Shown here in pieces: positions 7,820 through 53,391 of a stretch of DNA of 63,614 nucleotides. Source of the stretch: an uncultured Bacilli bacterium (GTDB lineage: Bacteria > Bacillota_I > Bacilli_A > RF39 > UBA660); the NCBI GenBank assembly GCA_947589105.1, contig CANQBL010000005.1:1-63614 (forward strand). Reading direction: 5' to 3'. The notes beneath the pieces are model-generated. The model ran no database searches and was not told the DNA's origin. It saw nothing but the letters and a program-made list of their open reading frames with translations. The position numbers were made by a program, and so were the translations under genes. Position 1 is the stretch's first letter. Each line of letters opens with the position of its first letter.

Positions 7820-10639
7820 ATGAAAAAAATAAAGAATTTAAAAAGAAAAATAATAGTTTTAGCAATAGTTTTATTTATTTTGCTTTTTGTATTAGTATTC
7901 AAATTATTTATTACTAATAACAAACCAAATAAATTATCAGCAAGGGTTATAACACCAGTAAATAACGCATTTACTGATAATCAATTTTATTCGTGTGTTG
8001 TAAACTCTTATAATAAAGAAAATGATACTAATTATGGATATGATTATAATTTATCAGATGAGCAGTTAGCAAGCATAAAAGATGTTAATTGTAATGAAAT
8101 TAACAATTATTTTTATAAAGGGGATATTTTTGAAGATGGGGTAGAATATTATAGCGGTTTTAGACTCGATAGAAATTCCAAGGTAGAAACTTGGCTTGGA
8201 ATTCCTGAAAGTTATTCTGATAACTTTGGAGATATTGATTCACTTGCAGATATGTTTACAAAATCTTCATATAAAGTTAATAATATCAAAGGAATTGAAA
8301 AATTAACCGGCCTTAAAAATTTTGATATTTCAGAATCATACGTTGATATTTCTGATGAATTTATATTTAAAAATAACGTTAATCTTGAAACACTTAAAAT
8401 AAGTACTTCTTTAAATAGCGGAGGAAAAACAATTAATCTTTCAAATAATAAAAAATTAAAAACCCTTTATTTTAATTCTTATTCTGGTTATAAAAAGGAA
8501 ACAATAATTTATCCTGAACAATTTAAAAATCAAAATTTAAAAAACGAAGATGATATAACTTTAATTTTAGAAAGTAATTTAAATTCGGATATAAATAATT
8601 TAAATGGAGTAAATAAACTTGCAATACTAGGAGAAATTAAAGATTATTCATATATTAAAGATCTTTCTAATTTAAAAAATTTGGTAATCTATAATAAAAA
8701 AAATATTACAAGTGATGTAACATTATCTGATTTTAAATCAATTGATAATTTACAAACTCTTTATTTTCATGGAGAAAGTAGTGATTTAGGTCCTGATGGC
8801 ACTTTGCCAAAGATGGATAAATTAAAAAAATTATATTTGGATGTTTCTGATAATTTTGCTAATTTTAATTTTGAAAATGTTAATAACGTAGAATCTGTTT
8901 CTTTAAAAGATTATAATTCTAAAACTACTAAAATTATGGATTTAAACGGTTTTTCTAGTTTGAGTAAACTAAAATTTTTAAACGTTGAAGACTCTAGTTT
9001 AACCGATTTAACCGGAATAGAAACCTTAAGTAATCTTGAAACTTTAGTTGTAGATAATATAGATTTAAATAATAAGGTATATAGTATCAAAAATCTTAAA
9101 GGAATCGTAAATGATTTTGCTAATTTACCAAATTTAAAAGCTTGGTATGCAAAAGGATATATTGGAGAAGAACCAAAAAAGAAGTTTAGTGAAGAGGAAA
9201 TAAATATAATCAAAAATCTTAATTACATTGTTTGTCCGTTCTTTAAATATATAATTTCCGAAATAAAAGATGGAGAATTTAAAAATTTAGAGTATTTATA
9301 CGTTGATAATATTTCCCAAACTAATTTAAATAAATTAGTAAATTTAAAAGAATTAGAAGTTTTAAATTCGGATATTTTAAATGTAGAAAATAATAAGAAA
9401 TTGAAAAAAGTTTTTGGTTATACTACTGGTTTTAGTAATTTAACTGATTTAGAAATTTTATTTGGCGCTATATTATCTGATGAAAAAGGTATATATTATA
9501 TGAAGAAAAATGATCTATATTTTTTTGAAGAAAAAGATTATGAAAAGCTTGTTCCTTCTAATACGTTAAAATTAACAAAACTACGAATTTTAGTTGATAT
9601 GAGTTTATCTAGTGGATTTTCTGTAACAAGTAATTTAGATTTTTCTAATAATACTAATTTAGAACTTATACATATTGGAAATGCTTATAATGGTAAAGAA
9701 ACTGGCATAGATGTATCTAAATGTGTTAATTTAAGATACTTATACTATGAAGGTAATTTAAGAAGATTAAATATTTCTAACAATAAAAAATTAGCTTTTG
9801 TAAATAATATTTTTCCTAACCAAAACATAGTTTTAAAAGATAAGGTAGACATAAGAGCTTTATATGATGTACCAGAACAAATTAAATTTCTTGATTTTGC
9901 ATCAGATGATGCTAGATTAGATGGTAATATAATGACTCTAAATAAATTAGGTCTGGTTAATTTTAGTGTTAATTTTATAAATACTTCTGCTTTTTGTATT
10001 AATAATGATTCAATTCAAACAAATAAAGAAACTACTTTAAAAGGTGATTTACTTTACCTAAAAGTATCATCAGATAAATTAGATATTAATAGCGATAAAA
10101 TGTATATATATACAAATGGCATAAATAAAGAAAAAGATATAATTAAAAATACTCATTTATCCACTTATGCTTTGGAAAATAAAGATGGATTTAGTAAGAT
10201 TTATATGTATGTTAACAAAAATAATTTAATTGCTAAAAGTGAAGGAAAAGAGATTTTAAAATATGAATTAATAAAAGTTTTATCATCTAAATATGAGGTT
10301 AAAGAAAACGAAATAAGATATCTTGGTGATTTTGATATTTCTAACGTAAGAATTATAAATGCAAATTATGAAGTTAAAGATGATGTTTTAAAAATAGTTA
10401 AAGAAAACGAAGTAATTAAAGAGTATAAATTAGTTAAAGAAGATGAAATGGTAGGAGATGTAAATAAAGATGGTATTATCTCAATATCAGATTTAACAAA
10501 GCAGTATAAACATGTTAAGTACGTACTTGATTTGGAAGGAAAAGATTTTTATAGAGCTGATATGAATGCAGATGATGATATTTCAATTACCGATGTAAGC
10601 CTATTATATAAATTATTAAAAGAGAAAGTAAGTGATTAA
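7820..10639 (+). CDS. membrane-anchored leucine-rich-repeat protein with C-terminal dockerin-like domain
   Basis: A 939-residue protein. Residues about 10-30 form a hydrophobic anchor after a Lys/Arg-rich start, giving an N-in, C-out topology. Most of the body is irregular leucine-rich repeats of the bacterial internalin/BspA-like kind (for example GIEKLTGLKNFDIS, LSNLKNLVIYN, SLSKLKFLNVEDS). The last 61 residues look like a type I dockerin, with two calcium-loop segments, DVNKDGIISISDL (from 880) and DMNADDDISITDV (from 914), in the D-x-N-x-D pattern. The second loop lacks the usual Gly. Dockerins bind cohesins, and a possible cohesin-like protein is encoded two genes downstream. No LPXTG motif. 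GGAGAG precedes the ATG. Function inferred: surface adhesion or assembly. Confidence 0.85.
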   Translation: MKKIKNLKRKIIVLAIVLFILLFVLVFKLFITNNKPNKLSARVITPVNNAFTDNQFYSCVVNSYNKENDTNYGYDYNLSDEQLASIKDVNCNEINNYFYKGDIFEDGVEYYSGFRLDRNSKVETWLGIPESYSDNFGDIDSLADMFTKSSYKVNNIKGIEKLTGLKNFDISESYVDISDEFIFKNNVNLETLKISTSLNSGGKTINLSNNKKLKTLYFNSYSGYKKETIIYPEQFKNQNLKNEDDITLILESNLNSDINNLNGVNKLAILGEIKDYSYIKDLSNLKNLVIYNKKNITSDVTLSDFKSIDNLQTLYFHGESSDLGPDGTLPKMDKLKKLYLDVSDNFANFNFENVNNVESVSLKDYNSKTTKIMDLNGFSSLSKLKFLNVEDSSLTDLTGIETLSNLETLVVDNIDLNNKVYSIKNLKGIVNDFANLPNLKAWYAKGYIGEEPKKKFSEEEINIIKNLNYIVCPFFKYIISEIKDGEFKNLEYLYVDNISQTNLNKLVNLKELEVLNSDILNVENNKKLKKVFGYTTGFSNLTDLEILFGAILSDEKGIYYMKKNDLYFFEEKDYEKLVPSNTLKLTKLRILVDMSLSSGFSVTSNLDFSNNTNLELIHIGNAYNGKETGIDVSKCVNLRYLYYEGNLRRLNISNNKKLAFVNNIFPNQNIVLKDKVDIRALYDVPEQIKFLDFASDDARLDGNIMTLNKLGLVNFSVNFINTSAFCINNDSIQTNKETTLKGDLLYLKVSSDKLDINSDKMYIYTNGINKEKDIIKNTHLSTYALENKDGFSKIYMYVNKNNLIAKSEGKEILKYELIKVLSSKYEVKENEIRYLGDFDISNVRIINANYEVKDDVLKIVKENEVIKEYKLVKEDEMVGDVNKDGIISISDLTKQYKHVKYVLDLEGKDFYRADMNADDDISITDVSLLYKLLKEKVSD

Positions 10640-10640
10640 C

Positions 10641-12626
10641 ATGAAGAAAAAGAAAAATATAATTACTATAATAATAATAACGATAATAATTTTATTAGTT
10701 GCGGTTTTATTTATTGTTAATCCATTTAATTTATTAAAATTAAAAGGTAGTGTTGAAATTGGAAATAAAGCTTTTACAGATCAATTCTTTTACTCTGATA
10801 TAGTTTATAATTATTATTCAAATTTATATCAAGATGAAGATGATGAAATGGCCATGTTTAATACTTTTTATGATAGCTATGAAGCAGGGATTTCCGATAT
10901 ATACTTTTTAATTGAATCTAAATATAATAATTTATATAAAATGAGTCTTTCTGATTCTCAATTAAGTACAATATCAGAGTTACATTTAGATAATTATTTT
11001 ATAACTAATTTAAAAGGAATAGAAAAATTAAATAACTTGACAACTTTATCTGGTAATATAAATGTAACTGAATTAGATTTATCTAATAATAGCAAAATAT
11101 CTCACGTAAATATTAATAGTGATGATTTTATTAAAGATATCTTATTACCTAATAATAATGTTTTAAAATCTTCTATTATTAATTGTTCTAAATATGAGCT
11201 AAGATCACCAAATAATACTTTTAATATAAATGATAAGAATTTTGATGCATCTGGTATAAAATCTATAAACTTTAATAATTTAGAAGTTAAAATATATAGT
11301 GATGATAAGCTGACTAATGAAATTACTGATAATTTAATCGCATCTGATTTATTAGGTAAATATTTAGTTTTGCGTGCCGATGATACTGAGTTTAAATATC
11401 AAATAACATATACCGAAAACTCAGAAAATGATAATGCAGTTACTTCTGATTCTTTCTTATATAGTAAAATAATAGAAGAATATAATAAAGAAAATAATAC
11501 CAATTATGATACTAATTATAGTTTATCAAAACAAGAGGCTAGTAAGTTAAAGAAATTAGAAATAACTTGTTCTAATAATAAAATAGATTCTTTAGAGAAA
11601 CTAGAATATTATAAAGGTTTACAAACACTAAAAATTAATAATTGTGGGTTAACAGATTTTACGGATTATTCTTTAAGAAATTTAAAAGAATTGGATTTAT
11701 CTAATAATGATATAACTGAATTTTCTATTTTTGATTCTGCATTTTTAGAAAAGTTAAATTTAAGTAATAATCCAAATTTAGAAATTATAGGGGCTTCTTC
11801 TTTTTTACTTAAAGAAATAAATATTAATAATGATAATTCAATTTATATTATTCAAGTTTTATCACCCATGTTAACTAAAATGGATGGAATAGAAAACTTA
11901 GATTTACAAATTTTATTGTTAGTATATTCTAAATTAGAAAAATTAGATATAACTAAAATGAAAAATTTACCAATGGTTTCTTTTGTAAATTCTGATTTTA
12001 CAAAAAATAAAGTAAATATTTTAGTTGGTCAAAATAAAGAGCTTGAATATAAATTAAAAATGCCTGATTCTTATTATGATAAAGACATATATAATGAAGA
12101 TGATTATATAGCTACTATAAAAGATAATGTTATAACTGCTCATAATATTGGTGAAACCGTGTTTACGAAATATTATAATGCTCTTGATTTTTCTATAATG
12201 GGCTATTATGATGATGATGAACAAACTTTATTTCCGATTAAAACATATGTAAATGTATATGATATTAAATCAAGTAAATTTTTAGTTAATAAAGAGCATA
12301 ACTATATATACACAAAACAAGAAACAGATGATAAAGTAATTAAAAGATATATAAAAGTGTATGGTGATAATGCAAAAAAAACTTATGATGCTAATAAAAA
12401 GAAAATTAGTTTAGAATCAAATGATGAGAAACTATTTACTTTTGATATTGTAAGCATAGATAGTGATGATTACCAAATTAAAAATAACGTAATAAAGTAT
12501 ACGGAAGAATTTGATATTAATAAATTAAAAATTACTAATGCTACCGCAAGTGTTATAGATAATCAATTACAATTAATATGTAATGGGGCAATAGTAGATA
12601 CATTCATATTAGAAGAAAGGAATTAA
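10641..12626 (+). CDS. membrane-anchored leucine-rich-repeat protein
   Basis: A 661-residue relative of the preceding protein. It has an N-terminal anchor (about residues 6-27), two LRR blocks each introduced by a similar cap (FTDQFFYSDIVYNYY near residue 48, SDSFLYSKIIEEYNKENN near 270), then a beta-rich C-terminal region without dockerin loops. The ATG at 10641 directly follows the stop of the upstream gene, so the pair is translationally coupled; the in-frame GTG at 10632 lies inside that gene. The start lacks a strong Shine-Dalgarno. Probably exposed outside the cell. Function unknown. Confidence 0.82.
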   Translation: MKKKKNIITIIIITIIILLVAVLFIVNPFNLLKLKGSVEIGNKAFTDQFFYSDIVYNYYSNLYQDEDDEMAMFNTFYDSYEAGISDIYFLIESKYNNLYKMSLSDSQLSTISELHLDNYFITNLKGIEKLNNLTTLSGNINVTELDLSNNSKISHVNINSDDFIKDILLPNNNVLKSSIINCSKYELRSPNNTFNINDKNFDASGIKSINFNNLEVKIYSDDKLTNEITDNLIASDLLGKYLVLRADDTEFKYQITYTENSENDNAVTSDSFLYSKIIEEYNKENNTNYDTNYSLSKQEASKLKKLEITCSNNKIDSLEKLEYYKGLQTLKINNCGLTDFTDYSLRNLKELDLSNNDITEFSIFDSAFLEKLNLSNNPNLEIIGASSFLLKEININNDNSIYIIQVLSPMLTKMDGIENLDLQILLLVYSKLEKLDITKMKNLPMVSFVNSDFTKNKVNILVGQNKELEYKLKMPDSYYDKDIYNEDDYIATIKDNVITAHNIGETVFTKYYNALDFSIMGYYDDDEQTLFPIKTYVNVYDIKSSKFLVNKEHNYIYTKQETDDKVIKRYIKVYGDNAKKTYDANKKKISLESNDEKLFTFDIVSIDSDDYQIKNNVIKYTEEFDINKLKITNATASVIDNQLQLICNGAIVDTFILEERN

Positions 12627-12628
12627 AA

Positions 12629-13432
12629 ATGAAGAAAGTAAAGTTTTTAATATTATTATTTTTAATTTTAATCATTCCTTATAAAGTTAAAGCATTAAGC
12701 CCAAGTCAAATTTTAACTTGTAATAGTAATAATTTAACAAATGACATAATAACTTGTGAATATTATGTTGATGTAGGAAGTAGTAGTATAAATGGAATAA
12801 CTACTAAATATTCGTATGACTCCAATTTAATTAGTATATCTTTTACTGCGGTAGGAACTTGGCAAGGAAATGCTAATGGTAATAGAATAGATTATTATAA
12901 CTATGAAGATTATACTGGAAAAGTACATATTTCTACAATAAAGATTAAACTTAAAGATGGGATAAGTGTTAAAGAAGATACAACTACCTTACTAAAGTTA
13001 AACTTACTTGAATTAAGTGATCAAGATAGTAAAGCTAATAAGTTTGATTTAAATGATTCTTATAGTTTTGTAATTAAAAAGGTATCTTTACCTCCTACAA
13101 AAGAAACTACAACAACTAAGCAAACAACAACTAGTAGTATAAAAACAACAACTAGTAAAAAAATGACTACTAAAGAAAATAAAGTAACTAGTAATAATGA
13201 AAATAAGACAACTAGTAATGTAACAAATACTGAGGTAACAAATACTACCAAAAAGAAAAATCATTTTAATACCACTAAAGAGTTAAATACTGAAAGTAAA
13301 AAAAATAAAAAAACAAAAAAATGTTTTTCTTGGCTAATCATTTTTATACTTTTATTAATTGCCATTTTATTAATTAGAAAAATTAATAAATTAATAAAAG
13401 AAGAAAAAGAAAATAAAAATTTGACAAAATAA
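12629..13432 (+). CDS. secreted, C-terminally membrane-anchored protein with possible cohesin-like domain and Thr-rich stalk
   Basis: A 267-residue protein. It has a signal peptide (residues 1-22, cleavage probably after KVKA), then a beta-rich domain of about 125 residues. In that domain the pattern of an acidic edge, INGITTKYSYDSNLISIS, and a later TGKVHISTIKIKLKD resembles cohesin or carrier-type immunoglobulin folds. Next come a Thr/Lys-rich stalk (about 152-225), a membrane helix (about 236-254) and a short basic cytoplasmic tail. It is the third gene of the LRR operon (2-base gap). If truly a cohesin, it would receive the dockerin of the first gene and display the complex on the envelope. 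The architecture is seen; the cohesin assignment is inference. Confidence 0.7.
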   Translation: MKKVKFLILLFLILIIPYKVKALSPSQILTCNSNNLTNDIITCEYYVDVGSSSINGITTKYSYDSNLISISFTAVGTWQGNANGNRIDYYNYEDYTGKVHISTIKIKLKDGISVKEDTTTLLKLNLLELSDQDSKANKFDLNDSYSFVIKKVSLPPTKETTTTKQTTTSSIKTTTSKKMTTKENKVTSNNENKTTSNVTNTEVTNTTKKKNHFNTTKELNTESKKNKKTKKCFSWLIIFILLLIAILLIRKINKLIKEEKENKNLTK

Positions 13433-13734: not shown

Positions 13735-14778
13735 ATGAAAAATATTATATTAACAGGAGATAGGCCAACCGGGCCACTTCATATTGGACATTACGTTGGT
13801 TCTATAAAAAATAGAGTTAAGGTGCAAAACGAGGGAAACTATGATGAAATGTATGTTTTTCTAGCAGATGCACAGGCACTAACAGATAATTTTGATAATC
13901 CAAAAAAAATAAAAGATAACATAATTGAGGTTGCATTAGATTATTTAGCAGTTGGTTTAGACCCTTCTAAGGTTACGTTTTTTATCCAATCAATGATACC
14001 GGAATTAACAGAATTAACTTTTTATTATATGAATCTTGTTACAATATCAAGATTACATAGAAATCCAACCGTAAAGTCTGAAATAGAGCAAAAAGGATTT
14101 GAAGAAAGCATACCAGCAGGTTTTTTTACTTATCCAGTTTCGCAGACGGCAGATATAACAGCTTTTAAAGCAAATATTATTCCGGTTGGAGACGATCAAT
14201 TACCAATGATAGAACAAGCAAGGGAAATTGTAAGAAAGTTTAATTCTATATATGGTAATACTTTAGTTGAACCAAAAGAATTGTTACCTGAAAATGAGGC
14301 TTGTTTTAGATTAGTTGGAATCGATGGAAAAGCTAAAATGAGTAAATCACTTGACAACTGTATTTATTTAAAAGATTCTGAAGAAGAAATAAAAAGAAAA
14401 GTAATGAGTATGTATACTGATCCTAATCATATAAAAATTGAAGACCCAGGAAATGTTGAAGGTAACACCGTATTTACATACCTAGATGCATTTTGTAAAG
14501 ATGATGATTTTAAAAAATATCTTCCAGAATATAATAATTTAGATGAACTAAAACAGCATTACCAACGTGGTGGTCTTGGTGATATGAAAATAAAAAGATT
14601 CTTAAATGATATTTTACAAGCAGAATTAAAACCAATTAGGGAAAGAAGACAAAAGTACGAAAAAGATATTGATAAGGTATATGATATTTTAAAAGAAGGA
14701 ACAAAAAAAGCTCGTTTAGCAGCATCAAAAACTTTAAAAGAAGTAAAAACAGCTATGGGAATTGAATACTTTGATTAG
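13735..14778 (+). CDS. trpS: tryptophanyl-tRNA synthetase
   Basis: Charges tRNA-Trp. Class I synthetase signatures: [13 protein letters not shown] (HIGH motif, residues 12-24), [16 protein letters not shown] and [10 protein letters not shown] (KMSKS). Length 347 fits bacterial TrpRS of the Bacillus/clostridial type. GAGGATTG precedes the ATG. It is expressed through the Trp T-box immediately upstream and was inserted, like the neighbouring surface and repeat genes, between yqxA and lepA of the ancestral order. Confidence 0.97.
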
Positions 14779-14911: not shown

Positions 14912-15393
14912 ATGGAAAACACTAAAAAGAAGTAAAAAATATTAAATTCGACTTAGATGCATTAAAAACTATTTCAAGGTGCTTTGACGGGCGTTATGCT
15001 TATACAAGAAACATATCAAATCCTGAAGATTTAGAAAGCGATTTAAGAAAAGTATTGATTTCTAATAATAAAATTTTAATTAAGGAATATATTCGTTTAT
15101 GCGTTTTTTGTTTACCACAATCTACATTAGATAAGATTATATTTGGTACAAAAGATAAAAATATAATAGCCTTATATTTGTTCTTAAAAGAGGATATTAA
15201 CTTAATAAATCAAATATTTGGAAATATAGATAATTTTTCTTCATATTGCTATGCTTGCAAGAAAGAGATTGGTTTTAATGATAAAGATATTATAAAAATA
15301 AAAAAGCTAGCTGATACGAACAAATATAATTATGTTGATGCTAATATAGAAGATTATTTAAAAACAATTAATGATTCTAAAAAAAGTCTTTAA
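14912..15393 (+). pseudogene. frameshifted, repeat-less first copy of the 31-residue-repeat gene family
   Basis: An ATG at 14912 with GGGAG upstream opens a frame that stops after seven codons (TAA 14933-14935). A -1 shift in the A-rich stretch 14923-14932 joins it to an open frame running to 15393. The joined product would be about 160 residues. Its last 110 or so residues match the C-terminal domain of the next three genes (for example TKDKNIIALYLFLKEDINLINQIFG and NIEDYLKTINDSKKSL), but no 31-residue repeats are present and the N-terminus (NIKFDLDALKTISRCF onward) is different. From TTG 15055 a shorter product is possible. It is either a decayed gene or one whose frame depends on slippage; the flanking terminator is intact. 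Confidence 0.65.
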
Positions 15394-15407
15394 CAAAGAC
15401 TTTTTTT
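15379..15407 (+). terminator. cassette terminator (copy 1)
   Basis: A perfect 13-bp stem, AAAAAAAGTCTTT with AAAGACTTTTTTT, around the loop AAC. The stop codon of the gene is part of the stem and loop. The same structure closes the next two genes. Confidence 0.85.
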
Positions 15408-15426
15408 GTATATTAGATCTTTATAA

Positions 15427-15454
15427 TTGTCAAATACTTAAAAATATATAAAAT
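15427..15454 (+). promoter_or_regulatory. cassette promoter of the 5-repeat gene
   Basis: TTGTCA and TAAAAT with a 16-base spacer, in a 90-base spacer copied twice more downstream. The -35 here has T at the fourth position where the other two copies have the consensus TTGACA, so this copy may be weaker. Confidence 0.6.
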
Positions 15455-15483
15455 AAAAGTAATTTAAAAAGGAGAAAATTACT

Positions 15484-16422
15484 ATGAGACTAAAGATAAA
15501 AATATTTGTTAATAAAATTGATTCTAAAAACGCTAGTGAAATATATAGATTTACGCTTGATAATCAAAAAATATTAACATCCAGTGATATAAATGAATTA
15601 ACCAAAGGAATAATACAAACTAATGATGCAGAATATATTTATTATTTTGCAACAGATTTAGAAGGCTTAACAAAAGAGAATAAGGATGAATTAACCAAAG
15701 GAATAATTCAAACTAAAGTTGCAAAGTTTATTTATTTGTTTGCAAAAGATGTAAAAAACTTAACAAAAGAGAATAAAGATGAATTAACCAAAGGAATAAT
15801 ACAAACTAACGATGCATACTATATTTATGGTTTTGCATTAGATGTAGAAGGTTTAACAAAAGAGAATAAAGATGAATTAACCAAAGGTATAATACAAACC
15901 AACAATGCAGAATGCATTTATTTGTTAGCAGAAGATGGAGAAGGTTTAACGAAAGAGAATAAGGATGAATTGACCAAAGGAATAATTCAAACTAAAAATG
16001 CAAAGTTTATTTATAATTTTGCAGTAGATGTAGAAGGTTTAACAAAAGAAAATAAGGATGAGTTAACTAAGAAAATTTTAAATTCAGATGATATTAATAT
16101 AATTAGAAGCTATATTAATTTATGTCTTGAAAAAAATCTAATATCACAAACTACGTTAGAAAAAATGGTATTAGAAACAAAAGATAAAAATGTAATAGCA
16201 TTATATTTATTATTAAAAAAAGATATTAACTTAATAAATCAAATATTTGGTAGTACTAATAATTTTTGTTTGTACTGTAATACTTATAAAAATGAAATTA
16301 AGCTTGATGATAACGATATTAAAGAAATAGAAAAACTATCTAATATAGATAAATATACTTATGTTGATTCTAACATAGAAGATTATTTGAAAACGATTGA
16401 TGATTCTAAAAAAAGTCTTTAA
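15484..16422 (+). CDS. 31-residue-repeat protein, 5 repeats
   Basis: A 312-residue protein with three parts: an N-terminal cap (residues 1-37, MRLKIKIFVNKIDS start), five tandem 31-residue repeats (38-192), and a 120-residue C-terminal domain. Each repeat begins ELTKGIIQT and ends LTKENKD, predicted as two short helices, so an alpha-solenoid is likely. The middle of the repeat varies: position 13 is E,K,Y,E,K, position 17 is Y,L,G,L,N and position 20 is T,K,L,E,V in repeats 1-5. No signal peptide or membrane segment, so cytoplasmic. AAAGGAG lies upstream. It has its own promoter and terminator. I do not recognise the family; a binding scaffold is inferred from the architecture. Confidence 0.85.
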   Translation: MRLKIKIFVNKIDSKNASEIYRFTLDNQKILTSSDINELTKGIIQTNDAEYIYYFATDLEGLTKENKDELTKGIIQTKVAKFIYLFAKDVKNLTKENKDELTKGIIQTNDAYYIYGFALDVEGLTKENKDELTKGIIQTNNAECIYLLAEDGEGLTKENKDELTKGIIQTKNAKFIYNFAVDVEGLTKENKDELTKKILNSDDINIIRSYINLCLEKNLISQTTLEKMVLETKDKNVIALYLLLKKDINLINQIFGSTNNFCLYCNTYKNEIKLDDNDIKEIEKLSNIDKYTYVDSNIEDYLKTIDDSKKSL

Positions 16423-16436
16423 CAAAGACTTTTTTT
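16408..16436 (+). terminator. cassette terminator (copy 2)
   Basis: The same 13-bp stem with AAC loop and T-tract as copy 1, overlapping the stop codon of the 5-repeat gene. Confidence 0.85.
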
Positions 16437-16455
16437 GTATATTAGATCTTTATAA

Positions 16456-16483
16456 TTGACAAATACTTAAAAATATATAAAAT
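16456..16483 (+). promoter_or_regulatory. cassette promoter of the 6-repeat gene
   Basis: TTGACA at 16456-16461 and TAAAAT at 16478-16483 with a 16-base spacer, within the repeated 90-base spacer. Confidence 0.65.
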
Positions 16484-16512
16484 AAAAGTAATTTAAAAAG
16501 GAGAAAATTACT

Positions 16513-17544
16513 ATGAGACTAAAGATAAAAAGATTTGTTAATAAAATTGATTCTAAAACCGCTAGTGAAATATATAGATTTACGCTTGATAATCAAACAA
16601 AATTAACATCAAAAGATATAAATGAATTAACCAAAGGAATAATACAAACTAACGATGCACACTATATTTATATTTTTGCAATAAATGTAGAAGGTTTAAC
16701 GAAAGAAAATAAAGATGAATTAACCAAAGGAATAATTCAAACTAACAATGCATACTATATTTATTTGTTTGCAAGAGATGTAAAAGGCTTAACGAAAGAA
16801 AATAAAGATGAATTAACCAAAGGTATAATACAAACCAACAATGCATACTATATTTATTTGTTTGCAAGAGATGTAAAAGGCTTAACAAAAGAGAATAAGG
16901 ATGAATTAACCAAAGGAATAATTCAAACTAACGATGCAAAATATATTTATTGGTTTGCAAGAGATGTAAAAGGCTTAACGAAAGAAAATAAGGATGAATT
17001 AACCAAAGGTATAATACAAACCAACAATGCAGAATATATTTATTGGTTTGCAAGAAATGTAAAAGGCTTAACAAAAGAAAATAAGGATGAATTAACCAAA
17101 GGAATAATACAAACTAGCGATGCAAAGTTTATTTGTAATTTTGCAACAGAGGTAGAAGGTTTGACAAAAGAAAATAAAGATGAGTTAACTAAGAAAATTT
17201 TAAATTCAGATGATATTAATATAATCAGAAGCTATATTAATTTATGTCTTGAAAAAAATCTAATATCACAAACTACGTTAGAAAAAATGGTATTAGAAAC
17301 AAAAGATAAAAATGTAATAGCATTATATTTATTATTAAAAAAAGATATTAACTTAATAAATCAAATATTTGGTAGTACTAATAATTTTTGTTTGTACTGT
17401 AATACTTATAAAAATGAAATTAAGCTTGATGATAACGATATTAAAGAAATAGAAAAACTATCTAATATAGATAAATATACTTATGTTGATTCTAACATAG
17501 AAGATTATTTGAAAACGATTGATGATTCTAAAAAAAGTCTTTAA
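16513..17544 (+). CDS. 31-residue-repeat protein, 6 repeats
   Basis: A 343-residue paralogue of the previous gene: the same 37-residue cap, six repeats (38-223) and a C-terminal 120 residues identical at protein level to the 5-repeat gene. Repeats 2 and 3 are identical. Positions 13/17/20 read H-I-I, Y-L-R, Y-L-R, K-W-R, E-W-R, K-N-T. It is exactly 31 residues longer than its neighbour, the size of one repeat. Synonymous differences dominate in the constant repeat ends while the middle residues change the protein. Own promoter and terminator. Function unknown. Confidence 0.85.
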   Translation: MRLKIKRFVNKIDSKTASEIYRFTLDNQTKLTSKDINELTKGIIQTNDAHYIYIFAINVEGLTKENKDELTKGIIQTNNAYYIYLFARDVKGLTKENKDELTKGIIQTNNAYYIYLFARDVKGLTKENKDELTKGIIQTNDAKYIYWFARDVKGLTKENKDELTKGIIQTNNAEYIYWFARNVKGLTKENKDELTKGIIQTSDAKFICNFATEVEGLTKENKDELTKKILNSDDINIIRSYINLCLEKNLISQTTLEKMVLETKDKNVIALYLLLKKDINLINQIFGSTNNFCLYCNTYKNEIKLDDNDIKEIEKLSNIDKYTYVDSNIEDYLKTIDDSKKSL

Positions 17545-17558
17545 CAAAGACTTTTTTT
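17530..17558 (+). terminator. cassette terminator (copy 3)
   Basis: Identical in sequence to copy 2, overlapping the stop codon of the 6-repeat gene. Confidence 0.85.
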
Positions 17559-17577
17559 GTATATTAGATCTTTATAA

Positions 17578-17605
17578 TTGACAAATACTTAAAAATATAT
17601 AAAAT
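17578..17605 (+). promoter_or_regulatory. cassette promoter of the 11-repeat gene
   Basis: TTGACA at 17578-17583 and TAAAAT at 17600-17605, 16-base spacer. The whole 90-base spacer is identical to the one before the 6-repeat gene. Confidence 0.65.
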
Positions 17606-17634
17606 AAAAGTAATTTAAAAAGGAGAAAATTACT

Positions 17635-19131
17635 ATGAGACTAAAGATAAAAAGATTTGTTAATAAAATTGATTCTAAAACCGCTAGTGAAATATATAGA
17701 TTTACGCTTGATAATCAAACAAAATTAACATCAAAAGATATAAATGAATTAACCAAAGGAATAATACAAACTAACGATGCACACTATATTTATATTTTTG
17801 CAATAAATGTAGAAGGTTTAACGAAAGAGAATAAAGATGAATTAACCAAAGGAATAATTCAAACTAACGACGCAGAATATATTTATTGGTTTGCAAAAAA
17901 TGTAAAAGGCTTAACAAAAGAAAATAAAGATGAATTAACCAAAGGAATAATTCAAACTAACGATGCAAAATATATTTATTGGTTTGCAACAGATGTAGAA
18001 GGGTTAACAAAAGAAAATAAAGATGAATTAACCAAAGGAATAATACAAACTAACGACGCAGAATATATTTATTATTTTGCAAAAAATGTAAAAGGTTTAA
18101 CAAAAGAGAATAAAGATGAATTAACCAAAGGAATAATACAAACTAAAGATGCAAAATATATTTATGGTTTTGCATTAGATGTAGAAGGTTTAACAAAAGA
18201 GAATAAAGATGAATTAACCAAAGGAATAATTCAAACTGGCGATGTAGAATATATTTATTTGTTTGCAAAAAATGTAGAAAGTTTAACAAAAGAGAATAAG
18301 GATGAATTAACCAAAGAAATAATTCAAACTAACAATGCATACTATATTTATAATTTTGCAAAAAATGTAGAAGGTTTAACAAAAGAGAATAAGGATGAAT
18401 TAACCAAAGGAATAATTCAAACCAACAATGCAGAATATATTTATAATTTTGCAACAGTTGTAGAAGGTTTAACAAAAGAGAATAAAGATGAATTAACCAA
18501 AGGAATAATTCAAACTAAAGATACAAAGGTTATTTATAATTTTGCAGTAGATGTGGATGGTTTAACAAAAGAGAATAAAGATGAATTAACCAAAGGTATA
18601 ATACAAACTAACAATGTAGAATATATTTATTTGTTTGCAAAAAATGTAGAAGGTTTAACAAAAGAGAATAAGGATGAATTAACCAAAGAAATAATTCAAA
18701 CCAACAATATACGCTATATTTATAATTTTGCAACAGAGGTAGAAGGTTTAACGAAAGAGAATAAGGATGAGTTAACTAAGAAAATTTTAAATTCAGATGA
18801 TATTAAAATAATCAGAAACTATATTAATAAATGTTTTGAAAAAAATCTAATATCACAAACTACGTTAGAAAAAATGATATTAGAAATAAAAGATAAAAAT
18901 GTAATAGCGTTATATTTATTATTAAAAGGTGATATTAACTTAATAAATAAAATATTTGTAAATATAGACAATTTTTCTTCATATTGTAATGTTTTCAAGG
19001 ATAAAATTGGTTTAAATGAAGTTGATTTTATAAAAATAAAAGAATTAAAAAATATGAACGAATATACTTATGTTGATTCTAACATAGAAGATTATTTAAA
19101 AACAATTGATGATTCTAAAAAAAGTTTTTAA
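17635..19131 (+). CDS. 31-residue-repeat protein, 11 repeats
   Basis: A 498-residue member of the array with the same cap as the 6-repeat gene and eleven repeats (38-378). Its C-terminal domain is diverged from the other two, with NIDNFSSYC as in the frameshifted first copy. Positions 13/17/20 over the repeats read H-I-I, E-W-K, K-W-T, E-Y-K, K-G-L, E-L-K, Y-N-K, E-N-T, K-N-V, E-L-K, R-N-T. Repeat 1 equals repeat 1 of the 6-repeat gene. The sharing of 5' ends with one paralogue and parts of the 3' end with another indicates recombination. The closing hairpin (around 19119-19145) has a mismatch. No catalytic motif is visible; a binding role is inferred. Confidence 0.85.
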   Translation: MRLKIKRFVNKIDSKTASEIYRFTLDNQTKLTSKDINELTKGIIQTNDAHYIYIFAINVEGLTKENKDELTKGIIQTNDAEYIYWFAKNVKGLTKENKDELTKGIIQTNDAKYIYWFATDVEGLTKENKDELTKGIIQTNDAEYIYYFAKNVKGLTKENKDELTKGIIQTKDAKYIYGFALDVEGLTKENKDELTKGIIQTGDVEYIYLFAKNVESLTKENKDELTKEIIQTNNAYYIYNFAKNVEGLTKENKDELTKGIIQTNNAEYIYNFATVVEGLTKENKDELTKGIIQTKDTKVIYNFAVDVDGLTKENKDELTKGIIQTNNVEYIYLFAKNVEGLTKENKDELTKEIIQTNNIRYIYNFATEVEGLTKENKDELTKKILNSDDIKIIRNYINKCFEKNLISQTTLEKMILEIKDKNVIALYLLLKGDINLINKIFVNIDNFSSYCNVFKDKIGLNEVDFIKIKELKNMNEYTYVDSNIEDYLKTIDDSKKSF

Positions 19132-19248
19132 CAAAGACTTTTTTAATTTATATAAATTTTATTAATTTATTAATTTTTGTATGTCTTTTATATTTGACTT
19201 TTGTATAAAAAATATATAATATATAATTCGTAAAAAGAGGAGTTTATT

Positions 19249-20283
19249 ATGCTTGAAGTTTTTATTAAGAATAAATTTTTGAAAAAAATAGATAAAAAAG
19301 ACTCAAATGAAATCTTGGATTTTATTTTAAAGTATCAAGAATTTTTAACAAAAGATGACATTGACCTATTAATAGAAAGGGTAATATCATTAAATGATCC
19401 TAAATTAATTTATGAAGTTTCTTTAAAAATAAAAAATTTAAGTAATAAAAATAAAAATGATTTAATTAATGCTTTAATATTAACTAAAAATGATAAATTC
19501 ATATATTTATATGCTTGTAATATTAATTATTTAAGTAAAGATAATATTAAAAAATTATTAAATGAAATAATTGAAATCAATAATGTAAAGTATATATATT
19601 TATTTGCTTCTAATGTAAAAGGTTTAGAAAAAGAAGATATTAATTTATTATTAGATGCAGTAATTAAATCAAAGGATTCAGAGTACATTAAAAATTTTGC
19701 TTGTTACGTGCCAAATTTAACAAAAGAAAATATAGATAAATTAACTATAGGCATAATTCAAACTAAAGATGAAGTAAATATTTATTTGTTTGCAAAAGAA
19801 GTAAAAAATTTAACAAAAGAGAATATAGATCAATTAACTAAAGGTATAATTCTTACTAAAAGTGAAAGATATATATATTTATTTTCAAAAAATATTGAAA
19901 ATTTAACAAAAGAAAATAAACTTCAATTATTTGAAGCATTATTATCAATAGCAAAAATTCCTGTAATTATAAATTTCTTTAAATTTTGTGTAAGTGAAGA
20001 ATTAATTAATAGTAAAGAGTTTGAAGAAATTGTAATTTCTTCTAGAAATGTTACTGTAATAGCTATTTATTTATTTAAAACTAAAAATGAAATATTAATA
20101 AATAAAATATTTGAAAGTAAAGCAAATTTTATTTTATATTGTAATTTAAATAAAAAAGAAATGAAAATTGATAATAATGATTTACAACAATTTACAAGTG
20201 ATATTAAATTTAATTTTGTAGATGATAATATACAAGATTATATTAATAATAAACAAGATAAGATTAAAAAGAGTCATATTTAA
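19249..20283 (+). CDS. diverged member of the 31-residue-repeat family
   Basis: A 344-residue protein, with no near-identical DNA to the array but the same plan. It has an N-terminal cap ([19 protein letters not shown]), six recognisable 31-residue units of which the fifth and sixth still carry [16 protein letters not shown] and LTKGIILTK, and a C-terminal domain with [15 protein letters not shown] and NIQDYINN matching the paralogues' ends. Positions 13 and 17 again vary while the I-Y/L-F-A core is kept. AGAGGAG lies 8 bases before the ATG. It is probably the older copy; the three preceding genes arose by recent local amplification. A G-U containing hairpin with T-tract follows at 20266-20292. 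Confidence 0.8.
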
Positions 20284-20292: not shown

Positions 20293-20327
20293 TTTCTTTG
20301 TTTGGTATAATATTTATAGGTGATTTT

Positions 20328-22121
20328 ATGAATAAGAAAGCCATAAGAAACTTTTGTATAATAGCACATATAGATCATGGTAAATCTACGATTGCAGATA
20401 GAATAATGGAAAAAACAGGTGCCGTAAGTAAAAGAGAGTTAAAAGATCAACTTTTAGATTCAATGGATTTAGAAAGGGAAAGAGGAATAACTATAAAATT
20501 AAATTCTGTTGAGTTGATTTATAAAAAAGATGGAAATGATTATATGCTTAATTTAATTGATACTCCAGGTCATGTTGATTTTTCTTATGAGGTATCACGT
20601 TCTTTAGCAGCTTGTGAGGGTGCTATATTAGTTGTTGATGCCGCACAGGGAATACAAGCACAAACACTTGCTAATTTATATTTGGCTTTAGAAAATAATT
20701 TAACTATTATTCCAGTAATTAATAAGATAGATTTACCTAATGCTGATATTAAAAGAGTTAAGGATGAAATTATTAATACTTTTGGTTTTAAAGAAGATGA
20801 GATTATTTTAACTAGTGCTAAAACAGGTACTGGAATAACACAGCTTTTAAATGAAATAGTAGATAAAATTCCATCACCAAATGGAAAGGATACTTCTAAA
20901 ACTCAAGCATTAATTTTTGATAGTGTGTACGAATCTTATCGTGGAGCCATTATTTGGATTAGGGTAGTTAATGGTAAAATAAGCATCGGGGATAAAATAA
21001 AAATGGTAAGTAATGGTTCAGTATACGAAGTAGTTGAACTAGGTAAGCATAATCCTCGGGAAATTAAAGTTAATACCTTATCAGCAGGAGAGGTAGGTTA
21101 TTTATGTGCATCTATTAAAAGTGTAAGTGATGTTATGGTTGGGGATACGATTACTACTTTAAAAGATAATGCAAGTATGCTTCCTGGTTATAAGCATATT
21201 AAGTCCATGGTTTTTTGCGGTCTTTATCCAATTGAGTCTAACAAATATAATGATCTTAAGGATGCTTTAGAAAAATTAAAATTAAATGATGCTTCTTTAT
21301 TTTTTGAACCTGAGGTATCAACGGCTTTAGGATTTGGTTTTAGGTGTGGTTTTTTAGGAATGCTTCATATGGAAGTTATTCAAGAAAGAATAGAAAGGGA
21401 ATTTAAAATTGAAATAATTGCAACGTCACCATCAGTTGTTTATGAAGTAATTAAGACAAATAATGAAAAAATAATGGTTGATAATCCAAATAAAATGCCT
21501 GATAGAACTATTATAAAGGAAATAAGAGAACCGTACATAAAAACCAATATATTTGTACCAAGTAATTTTATAGGTTCTGTTATGGAATTATGTCAAAATA
21601 AAAGAGGTAATTATATAAATATGGATTATATTAACTCAACCAGGGTTAATTTACATTATGAAATACCTTTATCAGAGGTGGTGTATGATTTTTTTGATAA
21701 ATTAAAGTCATATACTAAAGGTTATGCTTCATTTGATTATGAAGTAATTGGCTATAGAGCAAGTAATTTAGTTAAAATGGATATATTAATAAATAATGAG
21801 GTAGTAGATGCTTTATCAATAATAACGCATAAGGATTTTGCATATAAAAGGGGTAAGTCAATAGCAGAAAATTTAAGAAAACTTATTCCAAGACAACTTT
21901 TTGAAGTTCCTATACAGGCTGTAATAGGTGGTAAAGTAATTGCAAGATGTGATATAAAAGCAATGAGAAAAGATGTTTTATCTAAATGCTATGGAGGGGA
22001 CATATCAAGAAAAAGAAAACTTTTAGAAAAGCAAAAAGAGGGCAAAAAAAGGATGAAAATGGTAGGTAGTGTAGAAATTCCTCAAGAAGCGTTTTTATCA
22101 GTATTGAAAGTAGATGAATAG
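20328..22121 (+). CDS. lepA: elongation factor 4 (LepA) GTPase
   Basis: A ribosome-binding translational GTPase. The G domain shows AHIDHGKST (G1), RERGITIK (G2), DTPGHVDF (G3) and NKIDLP (G4). LepA-specific features are [26 protein letters not shown] and a C-terminal domain ending in [20 protein letters not shown]. Length 597, normal. ATG 20328 follows TAGGTGA; the in-frame ATG 30 bases upstream has no such site. A TATAAT at 20306-20311 may be its -10. In the ancestral order it follows spoIIP/yqxA and precedes hemW; here a small regulator lies between. Confidence 0.97.
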
Positions 22122-34874: not shown

Positions 34875-34886
34875 TTATTTGTTTTA

Positions 34887-35112
34887 AAGGCAAATTGAAA
34901 AAGAGTATGGGTAAAACTACTAAAAGAGAGTATGGTAAAGGTGAGAGCATACGTAGATAATAACCATATAAATGGCTTTCAAAGGCTTTTTAATCGAATA
35001 ATTAGATTAAAACGTTAACTTGCGTTAAGAGTTTAAGAGCTAGATAAATAATCTAGAACAAAGGTGGTACCGCGGTTAATGATCGTCCTTTATTTAAGGA
35101 CGATCTTTTATT
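34887..35112 (+). promoter_or_regulatory. T-box riboswitch (tRNA-Met), upstream of metG
   Basis: A leader with AGAGAG stem I base and GGTGAGAG loop, a likely ATG specifier at 34972-34974, and the near-consensus T-box AAGGTGGTACCGCG (35061-35074). TGGT at 35065-35068 pairs with an ACCA tRNA end, as in tRNA-Met. The terminator is GATCGTCCTT (35081-35090) with AAGGACGATC (35096-35105) followed by T residues. T-box control of methionyl-tRNA synthetase is known in some Firmicutes. Confidence 0.9.
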
Positions 35113-49605: not shown

Positions 49606-51423
49606 ATGAAAAAGAAAAATGGATTTACATTAATAGAATTATTAGTTACTATTGCTTTAATAATATCAATTACAGGTATTGCAGTAGTAAGTTTTATAAA
49701 AATAAGTGATAAAAGAAAAGAAGCAGCTTATGAAAAAGTTAAAGAACAAATAGTAACTGCAGCAGAAGAATATTTTAGTGTTAATGCTTACTATAAAGAA
49801 GTGTTATCTAGTAATGTTAACAATTCAATTAAAGTTTCTTTAGGAACTTTAGTTGAAGATGATTATTTAAATGTAGTTACTGATCCAAAAACAGGAAAAA
49901 AATTAAACTATTGTAACTATGTTAAAGTAAGTATGAATAATAAAGGTAGATTAAGTTATGATTTTAAAGATGATGAAGAAGATTGTTCAGCAAATAAATT
50001 CGTACAAGTAGAAGAAAAACCTTTTAAAGGAAGTACACCAACGATAAATATAGATGTTATTGGAAAAAAGGGAAACAACGACTGGTATGTTTTAGATGAA
50101 AATGCAGAAATAAAAACTCCAATTATAAAAATCACCGTTTCAGATGAAAGTAAAATAGAAGAAGATATAGAAGTAATAAATAAAAAAAGAGATGACAATT
50201 TTACCGAATCAGATTCTGATTTTTCTATACCATTATTTGAAAAAAACGGAGTGTTAACTGCAACAGATAGTATAAGTTATTCTGTAAGTACAAAAGGAAA
50301 AACAACCTGTTATAAAGTAACAAATGAATACGGAAATTCAACTGAAGATTGTAGAACTTTAAAAACTGATTTTGAAAACCCAAACTGTGAATTAAAATTT
50401 TTAGGAATAAGTGACGGAGAGGTAAATAAATATAAGGTATTTTATAGTAAACTAGGATCCTTCCCTCTTGTTTTGGTATCTTTATCTTATTCTGATAATA
50501 TATCAGGTGTTTTGACAAAAAAAATAAAAGTTCCAGTGGAAAAAGATTATGTAGCTTATCTTACTCCTAAAACTCAAGGGTATACTAATGATTCTACTAA
50601 AAAATGGTTCGGAATTGTTTATGATTATGCTGGTAACGTATCTGATTGTTCAAGAGATATTTATGTTTCTAAATATGATGGGTTAGAAAACTTTTTGAAT
50701 AAACAATTGAACGAACTATATTATACTTCTTGTGGTAAAACTGAAGGAGAAAATACAACTTGGACAAATAAAGATGTAACAATAACACAATATTTTGATG
50801 AAAAGCTTATTACTGGAACATTTAAAAATCAAAATGCTGATTCTAAAACCCAAACTTTTAAAGAAACAAAAAAAACTGCTGATATTGAAAAAAATATTGG
50901 TGTAAATGGTAATCAAACATTAAAATGTGAGGTTGATGTTTATGTTGATAAAACTAAACCTAAATATTCATATACAAGGTTTGATAAAGAAGGAAATAGC
51001 ACTGAAATTTCTAAAGGAACTATAATATTTAAATCATTGAACGGCTCGGGAAAGTTAGTTCAAAAAGAGGAAATTACTGTAACTAAAGATGACACTGGTA
51101 AATATAAAGGTACCGCTTGTATTGATGCTGCAAAGTTAGGTTATAAACCTGGTTCATTTAATTTTAGTGGATATAGTGAAGTTGCTATTGATGAGCATAG
51201 CGGTATTGCAAGCTATCAAGCTAATAGGACTGTAACAGGTAATGATGGAAAAAATAATTATACTTATTGTTATTATAATACTATAGGTAATAGAAAAGCT
51301 AATAGTCCTTGTACTTGGAGAGATGTTAGAACGGCAGTAGATAGAGCGGGAAACAAAAGTGATGATTTTGGAAAGATAGAGATTAAAGTAGGTTATAAAG
51401 GAAAAGATACTATTTGTAAATGA
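49606..51423 (+). CDS. large pseudopilin-like surface protein
   Basis: A 605-residue protein opening with a class III signal: basic MKKKNG, cleavage before F7, then FTLIELLVTIALIISITGIA with the glutamate at mature position 5. This is the type IV prepilin pattern. A short helical pilin-like part follows (KISDKRKEAAYEKVKEQI), then several beta-rich, Cys-containing units with DNTPP-like or D-x-T-x-P edges (VYVDKTKPKYSYTR) resembling bacterial Ig-like domains. Normal pseudopilins are 100-200 residues, so this is a pilin anchor fused to a large ectodomain. No prepilin peptidase or pilus ATPase is in the window. A paralogue follows. Confidence 0.8.
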   Translation: MKKKNGFTLIELLVTIALIISITGIAVVSFIKISDKRKEAAYEKVKEQIVTAAEEYFSVNAYYKEVLSSNVNNSIKVSLGTLVEDDYLNVVTDPKTGKKLNYCNYVKVSMNNKGRLSYDFKDDEEDCSANKFVQVEEKPFKGSTPTINIDVIGKKGNNDWYVLDENAEIKTPIIKITVSDESKIEEDIEVINKKRDDNFTESDSDFSIPLFEKNGVLTATDSISYSVSTKGKTTCYKVTNEYGNSTEDCRTLKTDFENPNCELKFLGISDGEVNKYKVFYSKLGSFPLVLVSLSYSDNISGVLTKKIKVPVEKDYVAYLTPKTQGYTNDSTKKWFGIVYDYAGNVSDCSRDIYVSKYDGLENFLNKQLNELYYTSCGKTEGENTTWTNKDVTITQYFDEKLITGTFKNQNADSKTQTFKETKKTADIEKNIGVNGNQTLKCEVDVYVDKTKPKYSYTRFDKEGNSTEISKGTIIFKSLNGSGKLVQKEEITVTKDDTGKYKGTACIDAAKLGYKPGSFNFSGYSEVAIDEHSGIASYQANRTVTGNDGKNNYTYCYYNTIGNRKANSPCTWRDVRTAVDRAGNKSDDFGKIEIKVGYKGKDTICK

Positions 51424-51445
51424 GGAAAATTTATTCCTCTTTTTA
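51422..51445 (+). terminator. terminator between the pseudopilin-like genes
   Basis: GAGGAA and TTCCTC around a 6-base loop followed by TTTTT; it includes the stop codon of the first gene. Confidence 0.65.
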
Positions 51446-51446
51446 A

Positions 51447-51475
51447 TTGAAATAAATTATTAGCTGTGATAACAT
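51447..51475 (+). promoter_or_regulatory. promoter of the second pseudopilin-like gene
   Basis: TTGAAA and TAACAT with a 17-base spacer, laid out like the promoter of its paralogue. Confidence 0.45.
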
Positions 51476-51496
51476 AATAATAGTAGGAGATATGAA

Positions 51497-53143
51497 ATGA
51501 AAAAGAAGAATGGATTTACATTAATAGAATTATTAGTTACTATTTTTTTAATAATAACAATTATAGGTATTGCAATAGTAAGTTTTATAAAAATAAGTGA
51601 TAAACAAAAGAAAAACGCTTATGAAAAGGTTAAAGAACAAATAATGGATGCTGCTGAGGATTATTTTTCATCAAACGAGTATTTATTTGAGGGGTTAAGC
51701 GATAATTCATATGGTGTAATAACTTTAGGAACATTGGTTGAAGAAGATTATATAAATAAAGCAACTGATCCAAGAAATAAAAAAGGTATTAACCCATGTA
51801 CTCAGGTAAGGGTAACTAAAAAAGATGGGGTTTATTCGTCTTCTTTTAAAGAGTTTTCAGAAGGAGATAAATGTGATAACAGTTATAAAATAACGGTTAG
51901 TGAACCTGGAGCTCCTGAAATAGTTATGATAGCAAGTGGTAAAAAAGGTAATGACCCATGGTATGTTGAAAATGTTACTTTAAATGTAGAAATAAATACA
52001 AAAAATAATGGAGTAATAAAAAGTATAGAAAAATGTATTGGTGATGTTTGTACTAATTATAATGATCCTTTAGAAATTAAAAATAAGTATATTGATACGA
52101 TAAAAGATACTGCTTCAACAACTATAAAATATAAAGCTACTAATATGTCGGGAAAAACTGCTGAAGCTTCGGTAACTTTAAAAGTAGATACTAACCCTCC
52201 AACGTGTAGTTATAAGACTAATAAAGAGCCTTCAAATACTGGTTGGTATAATAATAATACCGGAAAGCCTACTTTAACAATTACTGGTACGGATAGTTTA
52301 AGTGGTATTGATGGAAAGTCAAGTGCTACTCCTTCTATAGGTGTGGGAAACAATGCTTATAGTTATACTTTTAAAGATAAAGCTGGTAATTTAAAAGAAT
52401 GTTCTACCAAGATAAAGTATGATGATTCATCTCCTTTGTGTCCTTCAAAATGGAGTATAAAGGATGTAAATGTTAGTAATTACAAAAATTGTAATACATC
52501 ATATAGTAGAAATAATTGGCACTGTGCTGATGTTAAATTAACCATTAATAAGAGTTCTGATTGGGATAAGTGGAGTTGGGATAATAAAAGTTATTCAACA
52601 AGTGGTTTAAGTTCGGATAAAAAAACAATTTCTAATACATATAATACTGAAATGGATGTTAAATCTATAAAGTTTTATGTAAAAGATAAAGCTGGAAATG
52701 TATCTGTTTGTGATAGTGTTAAATTTGGAATTGATCATACACAACCTAAATTAGTTACTAGTGCAGGCGGTTGGGTAGATTGCCATAGAAAAGATTCAAA
52801 TTATTATAATTCATGGGGATACTCAGTTAAATTTAAAGATGATAGAAGTGGTGTAATTGCTAACTTAACAGAATATTATTCAAGTTGGGATTGTAATAAA
52901 ACAAATCCTTATCATTGGGCTTCATCATCATCAAATAGTAGTTATAAAAAATCTAATGACGAAAGAATTTATACTGTTTTTGCAGGCTGTTCTGATAATC
53001 CAGATCCTAAAGCAAGATTTAATATTGTAGATGGAGCTGGGAATGTGCTTAGTAATATAGAAATTATTGCAAGTAAAAAAACAGGAACTTCTAAAAAAGG
53101 AGATACTTGTAATAGTTCTAAGTGGTTTACTGATAATAGATAA
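51497..53143 (+). CDS. large pseudopilin-like surface protein, paralogue
   Basis: A 548-residue paralogue of the previous gene. The first 45 residues are almost the same (MKKKNGFTLIELLVTIFLI, then KISDKQKKNAYEKVKEQI), while the ectodomain differs. It has Ig-like units with VDTNPPTCSY, TGTDSLSGIDG and YSYTFKDKAGN motifs, many Trp and 15 or so Cys, ending in a Lys/Ser-rich tail. Conserved anchor with variable ectodomain suggests duplication followed by diversification of the exposed part. AGGAGA lies upstream. It is followed by the Ala T-box. Confidence 0.8.
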   Translation: MKKKNGFTLIELLVTIFLIITIIGIAIVSFIKISDKQKKNAYEKVKEQIMDAAEDYFSSNEYLFEGLSDNSYGVITLGTLVEEDYINKATDPRNKKGINPCTQVRVTKKDGVYSSSFKEFSEGDKCDNSYKITVSEPGAPEIVMIASGKKGNDPWYVENVTLNVEINTKNNGVIKSIEKCIGDVCTNYNDPLEIKNKYIDTIKDTASTTIKYKATNMSGKTAEASVTLKVDTNPPTCSYKTNKEPSNTGWYNNNTGKPTLTITGTDSLSGIDGKSSATPSIGVGNNAYSYTFKDKAGNLKECSTKIKYDDSSPLCPSKWSIKDVNVSNYKNCNTSYSRNNWHCADVKLTINKSSDWDKWSWDNKSYSTSGLSSDKKTISNTYNTEMDVKSIKFYVKDKAGNVSVCDSVKFGIDHTQPKLVTSAGGWVDCHRKDSNYYNSWGYSVKFKDDRSGVIANLTEYYSSWDCNKTNPYHWASSSSNSSYKKSNDERIYTVFAGCSDNPDPKARFNIVDGAGNVLSNIEIIASKKTGTSKKGDTCNSSKWFTDNR

Positions 53144-53181: not shown

Positions 53182-53196
53182 GTATTTATAGTTAAA

Positions 53197-53391
53197 TTGT
53201 TGAAGAAAAACTAGTAAGTAATAATTATTTTAAAGAGAGTTAGTGGATGGTGAAAACTAATATTTAATATTACTGAAGCTATTTTTGGAGAGTAGTTAAA
53301 CACTACCGGTTAAAGCCGTTATCAAAATTAAGAATAAAATAGGATGGTACCACGACCTCTCGTTCCTAAGGATTGGTGTGGTACCTTTTTT
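53197..53391 (+). promoter_or_regulatory. T-box riboswitch (tRNA-Ala) upstream of a P-loop kinase gene and alaS
   Basis: AGAGAG and GGATGGTGAAAAC mark stem I, a GCT specifier is seen at 53278-53280, and the T-box is AGGATGGTACCACG (53341-53354). TGGT pairs with an ACCA tRNA end. The terminator uses the T-box itself: GGTACCAC (53346-53353) with GTGGTACC (53378-53385), then TTTTTT. The alaS position two cistrons downstream supports the alanine assignment. Confidence 0.88.

Follow-up and report, generated by a model that had tools for sequence, protein, structure and literature searches.

Five adjoining homologous genes, bounded by trpS and lepA, occupy positions 14912–20283 of the window (the whole stretch of DNA analysed here, 63,614 nucleotides from an uncultured Bacilli bacterium) and form a new family of repeat proteins, narrow in host range and of an evolutionary kind already known. 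Statistically, their 31-residue unit combines a scaffold under strong purifying selection with an excess of change at positions 17, 21 and 24, on an exposed face of its second helix (helix B). That this face is a selected binding surface is probable. Our best explanation as a whole, which we hold tentatively and which falls a little short of probable, is that the genes may encode cytosolic modular binding proteins, engaged in conflict with phages or competitors, in which selection and the exchange of units reshape the face of helix B. The array, its spacers and its flanks are as follows.

13735–14778, + strand: trpS, left flank of the array, with low between-species divergence like that of the array.
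14912–15393, + strand: gene 1, a repeat-less member with its frame broken near the start; intact homologue at G001 L025:4525-5007.
15394–15483, + strand: spacer 1-2, with a terminator-like hairpin over the gene 1 stop codon, followed by promoter-like and ribosome-binding sequence (recognised only by inspection and consensus).
15484–16422, + strand: gene 2, N-cap, five 31-aa repeats and C-terminal domain, 312 aa (open reading frame and unit count).
16105–16706, + strand: first copy of a 602-bp exact repeat, covering the end of gene 2, the spacer and the start of gene 3.
16423–16512, + strand: spacer 2-3, 99% identical to spacer 1-2.
16513–17544, + strand: gene 3, N-cap, six repeats and C-terminal domain, 343 aa; copy number assembly-dependent.
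17227–17828: second copy of the 602-bp exact repeat.
17545–17634, + strand: spacer 3-4, 100% identical to spacer 2-3.
17635–19131, + strand: gene 4, N-cap, 11 repeats and C-terminal domain, 498 aa; AlphaFold mean pLDDT 93.8.
19249–20283, + strand: gene 5, a diverged paralogue with six repeats, 344 aa; AlphaFold mean pLDDT 90.4.
20298–22121, + strand: lepA, right flank of the array, with normal between-species divergence.

A sequence-only reading of this DNA had described five adjacent genes, one of them frameshifted, with 0, 5, 6, 11 and 6 repeats, and both the positions and the counts hold: the open reading frames and a repeat finder, which recovered the 93-nt period as 27 in-register copies at a spacing of 93, give units of exactly 31 residues. 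Gene 1 begins ATGGAAAACACTAAAAAG and reaches a stop codon immediately in that frame; its C-terminal domain is readable from 15055. The G001 counterpart is intact, repeat-less and 160 aa long, with an A-run of a different length, so the window copy is possibly a pseudogene, a phase-off allele or the result of a sequencing error. The nearest relative of gene 5 also lies in G001 (L025:6543-7667).

The three 90-bp spacers, already described as near-identical, are 99–100% identical. Each holds a promoter-like TTGACA/TTGTCA-16-TAAAAT (hexamers with 11 of 12 matches in two spacers, in a scan with no more hits in total than chance would give). Inspection also shows, in each, a terminator-like hairpin and T-run overlapping the stop codon of the preceding gene, so every gene has the look of a separate transcription unit. 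The C-terminal domain proteins of genes 2 and 3 are identical and lie within the 602-bp exact repeat. Because this repeat occurs at both 16105 and 17227, the copy number of gene 3 rests on how it was assembled; genes 2, 4 and 5, judged by their unique interiors, are safe from this doubt.

AlphaFold, given an alignment of window paralogues and relatives from genome contigs (11 related sequences), predicts regular helix pairs in the proteins of genes 4 and 5, with helices of ∼13 and ∼10 residues recurring every 31 residues. In the predicted unit, helix A spans approximately positions 31–12 and helix B positions 16–25, and the C-terminal domain is predicted to be helical, with confidence falling toward its end. 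AlphaFold models of repeat proteins are liable to over-confidence. The prediction, that for the 11-repeat protein included, supports the regular helical solenoid expected from sequence. Foldseek searches against the PDB returned solenoids of many kinds at query-normalised TM-scores ≤ 0.38, which leaves the predicted fold class clear, an alpha-solenoid of regular two-helix repeats, and membership of any known family not; as generic solenoids with low TM-scores, the individual PDB matches were rejected as homologues.

Within the units, variation is concentrated and directional. Across 19 internal units of the window, about half of the positions are invariant and changes cluster at 14–18, 21, 24, 25 and 27. 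The site set 17/21/24 consists of the positions that rank among the six most variable in both G001 and G005, so it is not fitted to the window alone. At these sites, window pN divided by the all-codon pS is 2.42 (unit bootstrap 1.88–3.08, with 0 of 1000 replicates below 1), an excess obtained as a pairwise count on recombining units and not from a formal site model; the remaining positions give a pN/pS of 0.29. The two least diverged sets give ratios of 2.3–4.3 when sites are taken from G001, from G005 or, for the other set, from the window itself, though only 1.0–1.2 when they are chosen from G011 and G015 together. The excess is gone (ratio ∼0.6–1.0) in the more diverged species, whose synonymous sites are nearly saturated.

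The variable positions of helix B share one face (direction 112–123 degrees in four sets, shuffle P 0.007–0.047), opposite the conserved I19, Y20, F22, A23 and V26. Amino-acid changes also accumulate at positions 14–15, in the A–B loop, and at 25, and G001 repeats carry extra residues in that loop, on the same edge as the variable positions. The changing surfaces proposed in the sequence-only reading are thus upheld to the extent that exposed residues do change. Helix A positions hardly vary in the window units, which argues against mere lack of constraint. Unit similarity is about equal within and between species (0.79–0.86) for the window, G001, G015 and G011, so their arrays draw on one shared pool; units of G005 and G004 are more alike within species than between. 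A diversity-generating retroelement was rejected as the source of this variation: changes in the variable codons are not confined to A-to-N, and the window shows no evident reverse transcriptase.

Between species, trpS and the array are far less diverged than their surroundings. In the same species pairs, pS is 0.20–0.33 for trpS and 0.20–0.35 for the array, compared with 0.52–0.71 for gpr, spoIIP and yqxA and 0.36–0.57 for lepA. Against G015, trpS stands at 0.32 and the array at 0.31–0.35, with gpr, spoIIP, yqxA and lepA at 0.56–0.71; against G017, trpS is at 0.33 versus 0.56–0.69 for the flanks; and against G001, trpS is at 0.20 and the array at 0.20–0.23 versus 0.36–0.53 for the flanks. At similar pS, pN is 0.11–0.15 in the array versus 0.006–0.019 in trpS. 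Tight codon conservation could lower trpS pS in part, but the trpS genes of G005 and G013 are as diverged as their own flanks (pS 0.68–0.69), so it does not explain the low values alone. The simplest reading of the divergence values is that the trpS–array segment was horizontally exchanged between species. The recent expansion suggested earlier holds locally, while the cassette appears also to have moved between species.

The full family, defined by repeats together with the C-terminal domain, occurs only in one genus of Bacilli with ∼1 Mb genomes. A C-terminal profile matched 13 of 18 genomes of the genus, a count that takes in genomes whose sole hit is a weak one, to a single-copy gene lying between truB and pnp, and the C-terminal and three-repeat profiles matched 2–3 of ∼300 class genomes and 2 of ∼390 phylum genomes, the window's own genome included. 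Those relatives that are named come from uncultured Bacilli or bacteria, at least these being metagenome assemblies; "Lapin" in several of their names is taken to mean rabbit gut, and the host is a small-genome, probably gut-dwelling bacterium.

The trpS–lepA slot is empty in five relatives (G006, G010, G013, G014 and G016; 54–76 bp), holds unrelated genes in G008 and a broken family remnant with a Bro-N gene in G017, and contains one member in G002, G004, G005 and G015, three in G001 and five in the window. In G003 and G011, one member follows trpS and the contigs end before lepA; in G009, at least five diverged members stand in a row after trpS, with lepA elsewhere. Family remnants were seen by inspection in G004 and G005, and a second copy in G015 adjoins a mutS-like gene (L027:5659-8214). 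The copy-number comparison across relatives proposed with the sequence-only reading thus yields anything from none to many copies. Across the genus, the yqxA–lepA interval contains an alternative TrpRS, LRR/dockerin, deoxyribosyltransferase, Rpn-type or Bro-N genes, or nothing. That reading had placed the array in an otherwise conserved yqxA–lepA core block; the gene content between trpS and lepA varies, with some relatives empty, and the supposed block is a turnover slot.

Other observations concern this interval and the rest of the window. Two TrpRS types (∼31% identity) swap at the same chromosomal slot within the genus, one example of each matching TIGR00233 (loci compared: window 13735–14778; L028:1351-2337; L030:4963-5943; L031:5313-6293; L098:3883-4860; L102:4502-5482), and the switch looks like in-place gene replacement. 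At window 7820–13432, two LRR proteins, of which the first carries a dockerin domain at its C terminus, are followed by a 267-aa protein in which a cohesin-type-looking domain, a Thr-rich linker and a membrane anchor are visible by eye, without Pfam support; a dockerin–cohesin pair is possible, and this group is absent from the position in the relatives examined. T-box leaders precede metS (34884–35093, 99.7 bits) and the alaS operon (53191–53370, 93.4 bits), and 49606–53143 encodes two large proteins in tandem whose N termini carry a pseudopilin-like methylation motif (Pfam match checked in the first protein).

Family searches returned little for the array proteins. Pfam, NCBIfam, PHROGs and PADLOC gave only short, low-quality matches, none credible, and PDB sequence searches gave nothing credible. 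The Pfam TPR, HEAT, ARM, ankyrin and mTERF profiles did not match, leaving scattered low-complexity-type hits to BofC_C and USP_UIM_N on short pieces; these, phrog_4021 and the other Pfam and PHROGs matches were rejected as one short stretch added up across many identical repeats. PADLOC yielded no defence-protein match (best E 0.017, over a 34-residue stretch). Neither tblastn of the 11-repeat protein against phages and plasmids nor of the G005 protein against phages returned a match, and 50,697 phage records and IMG/VR contained no close match to the family. IMG/VR scans with the protein, a generic repeat consensus typed by hand and profile A9 gave no confirmed match, and a hand-typed, phage-style consensus (KDVLKGRWPEAEP, not used as evidence) matched no phage and nothing useful in Pfam.

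Profile–profile comparison linked the 31-residue unit to a 28-residue FAxxVxGAD repeat present in G089, G246, G003 and a Stutzerimonas plasmid (WP_326430466.1), with probability 98.9 and E 1.8e-17 in one comparison of small alignments having no sequences in common. On this evidence, the unit is distantly related to a repeat of a few other bacteria, and thus neither isolated nor wholly unprecedented. Both share the helix-B signature Y-x-F-A-x-x-V, but the FAxxVxGAD unit is three residues shorter (it does not have the LTK of LTKEN), its repeats have low internal identity, and the proteins neither share the C-terminal domain nor form an array. In G003, a second solenoid protein with a 28-residue FARDVRGADIKAHE repeat lies directly upstream of trpS (L031:3815-4942), so that one hotspot hosts two kinds of repeat protein. 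The C-terminal domain is common to nearly all members, even those with decayed repeats, and its motif, IAxYL..LINxIF...YVDDNI, occurs in all five window genes and most other member-bearing genomes of the genus. A single-copy gene of ∼340 aa, predicted helical, lies between truB and pnp in the window's own genome (L084:4310-5332) and was seen in eight genomes of the genus; it shares this domain (hhalign 93.6%), with a weaker motif match, and may be an old vertical, possibly ancestral, member. The profile searches that had been suggested therefore match no known repeat family and connect the unit to FAxxVxGAD and the C-terminal domain to the truB–pnp gene. The earlier statement that no described family has this repeat stands for Pfam, NCBIfam, PHROGs, PADLOC and the PDB, and is qualified by the FAxxVxGAD link.

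Several known systems resemble the array in part. TPR, HEAT, ARM, ankyrin and Sel1 proteins also stack two-helix repeats as solenoids, and Foldseek returns many of them, but at the low TM-scores given above and with no family match, the array having a 31-residue consensus of its own. Among viral proteins, the best fold match is A0A6J5RY29 in BFVD, which is uncharacterised and comes from an uncultured tailed phage, with E 4.9e-7, TMt 0.48 and 24% identity across 221 columns. TALE/STAR proteins and pTERF, the latter from gut Bacillota metagenomes (PMC11417379), are likewise solenoids whose units are nearly identical and vary at few residues; pTERF units, however, have three helices and an mTERF annotation, unlike the two-helix, non-basic array units. 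In Podospora anserina het-d and het-e, near-identical repeats swap units, and positive selection acts on four codon positions in each repeat, which lie on the interaction surface (PMC1805685, PMC4986451). The HNWD/het-d/het-e genes and the array have in common near-identical repeats in varying number, exchange between paralogues and excess change at a few fixed exposed positions (here as pairwise counts), but the fungal repeats are WD40, ANK or TPR on a NACHT/STAND receptor with an effector; the array has a different fold unit and no NTPase, and the two are not homologous.

Metagenome assembly that created or miscounted the tandem copies is highly improbable as an explanation of the array. The 602-bp repeat does link the gene 2/3 and gene 3/4 junctions, and the genomes of at least the named relatives come from metagenome assembly, but beyond the unique interiors of genes 2, 4 and 5, units differ mutually by at least 3 of 93 bases, and the same architecture stands at the same place in independent assemblies of sister species, so that doubt falls only on the gene-3 copies. 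A neutral by-product, in which recombination homogenises tandem repeats and exposed positions are merely unconstrained, with no selected binding surface, would agree with the ratios of ∼0.6–1 at variable sites in diverged species and with repeat expansion alone being common. We consider it unlikely, given the window ratio and its bootstrap interval, the higher ratios of the two least diverged sets (though not with G011- and G015-chosen sites) and the near-invariance of helix A.

A special form of our best explanation is an immunity- or antitoxin-like repertoire, each protein neutralising a given incoming toxin or phage protein by binding alone. Orphan immunity gene clusters turn over in hotspots, and the strong turnover at one slot, the row of diverged members in G009, the regulatory sequence belonging to each gene and the want of a recognisable effector domain all fit; against these stand the absence of any Pfam or NCBIfam immunity-family match, no cognate toxin seen nearby and a varying repeat number atypical of immunity families, and we judge this form unlikely. 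Variation of few residues at fixed places in an invariant scaffold, together with varying repeat number, would also suit a sequence-specific nucleic-acid reader of the TALE, PUF, PPR or pTERF type in which each repeat would read a single base through residues 17, 21 and 24, and gut Bacillota are a source of new DNA-binding tandem repeat families (PMC11417379). Such a reader is very unlikely here: none of the four proteins is strongly basic, and two are plainly acidic (predicted pI 5.0, 8.0, 5.3 and 8.5; net charge −9 to +4), and the three-helix, mTERF-annotated units of pTERF (PMC11417379) differ from two-helix units with no mTERF match.

Under the preferred reading of a binding family remade by selection and unit exchange, residues 17, 21 and 24, with 14–15 and 25, would form a variable contact surface on each of the 2–11 near-identical repeats found per protein across the family. 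New combinations would arise by unequal recombination among 93-bp units and among genes, and horizontal exchange of the trpS–array segment would supply more. The ligand would be a fast-changing protein or peptide met in the cell, a phage or competitor product, and the array would act as a recognition or neutralising repertoire. The proteins have no recognisable domain, effector or other, beyond cap, repeats and C-terminal domain, no defence match and no defence genes recognisable nearby, which makes the conflict role one that we infer. By analogy, the family is possibly, if doubtfully, a STAND-free bacterial equivalent of the variable-repeat recognition genes of fungi, comprising genus-specific solenoid receptors or neutralisers directed against phages or competitors, with a binding face renewed by shuffling of repeats and by horizontal exchange of the trpS-linked cassette.

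If the preferred reading is true, a bacterium with a ∼1 Mb genome devotes scarce coding space to self-diversifying binding proteins, and the array would offer a compact bacterial model of how repeat shuffling and selection build recognition repertoires, so far known mainly from fungal allorecognition genes. Whatever its role, the unit amounts to a naturally occurring consensus solenoid, each repeat offering three variable positions, a design like that of engineered repeat binders, and it could serve as a binder scaffold.
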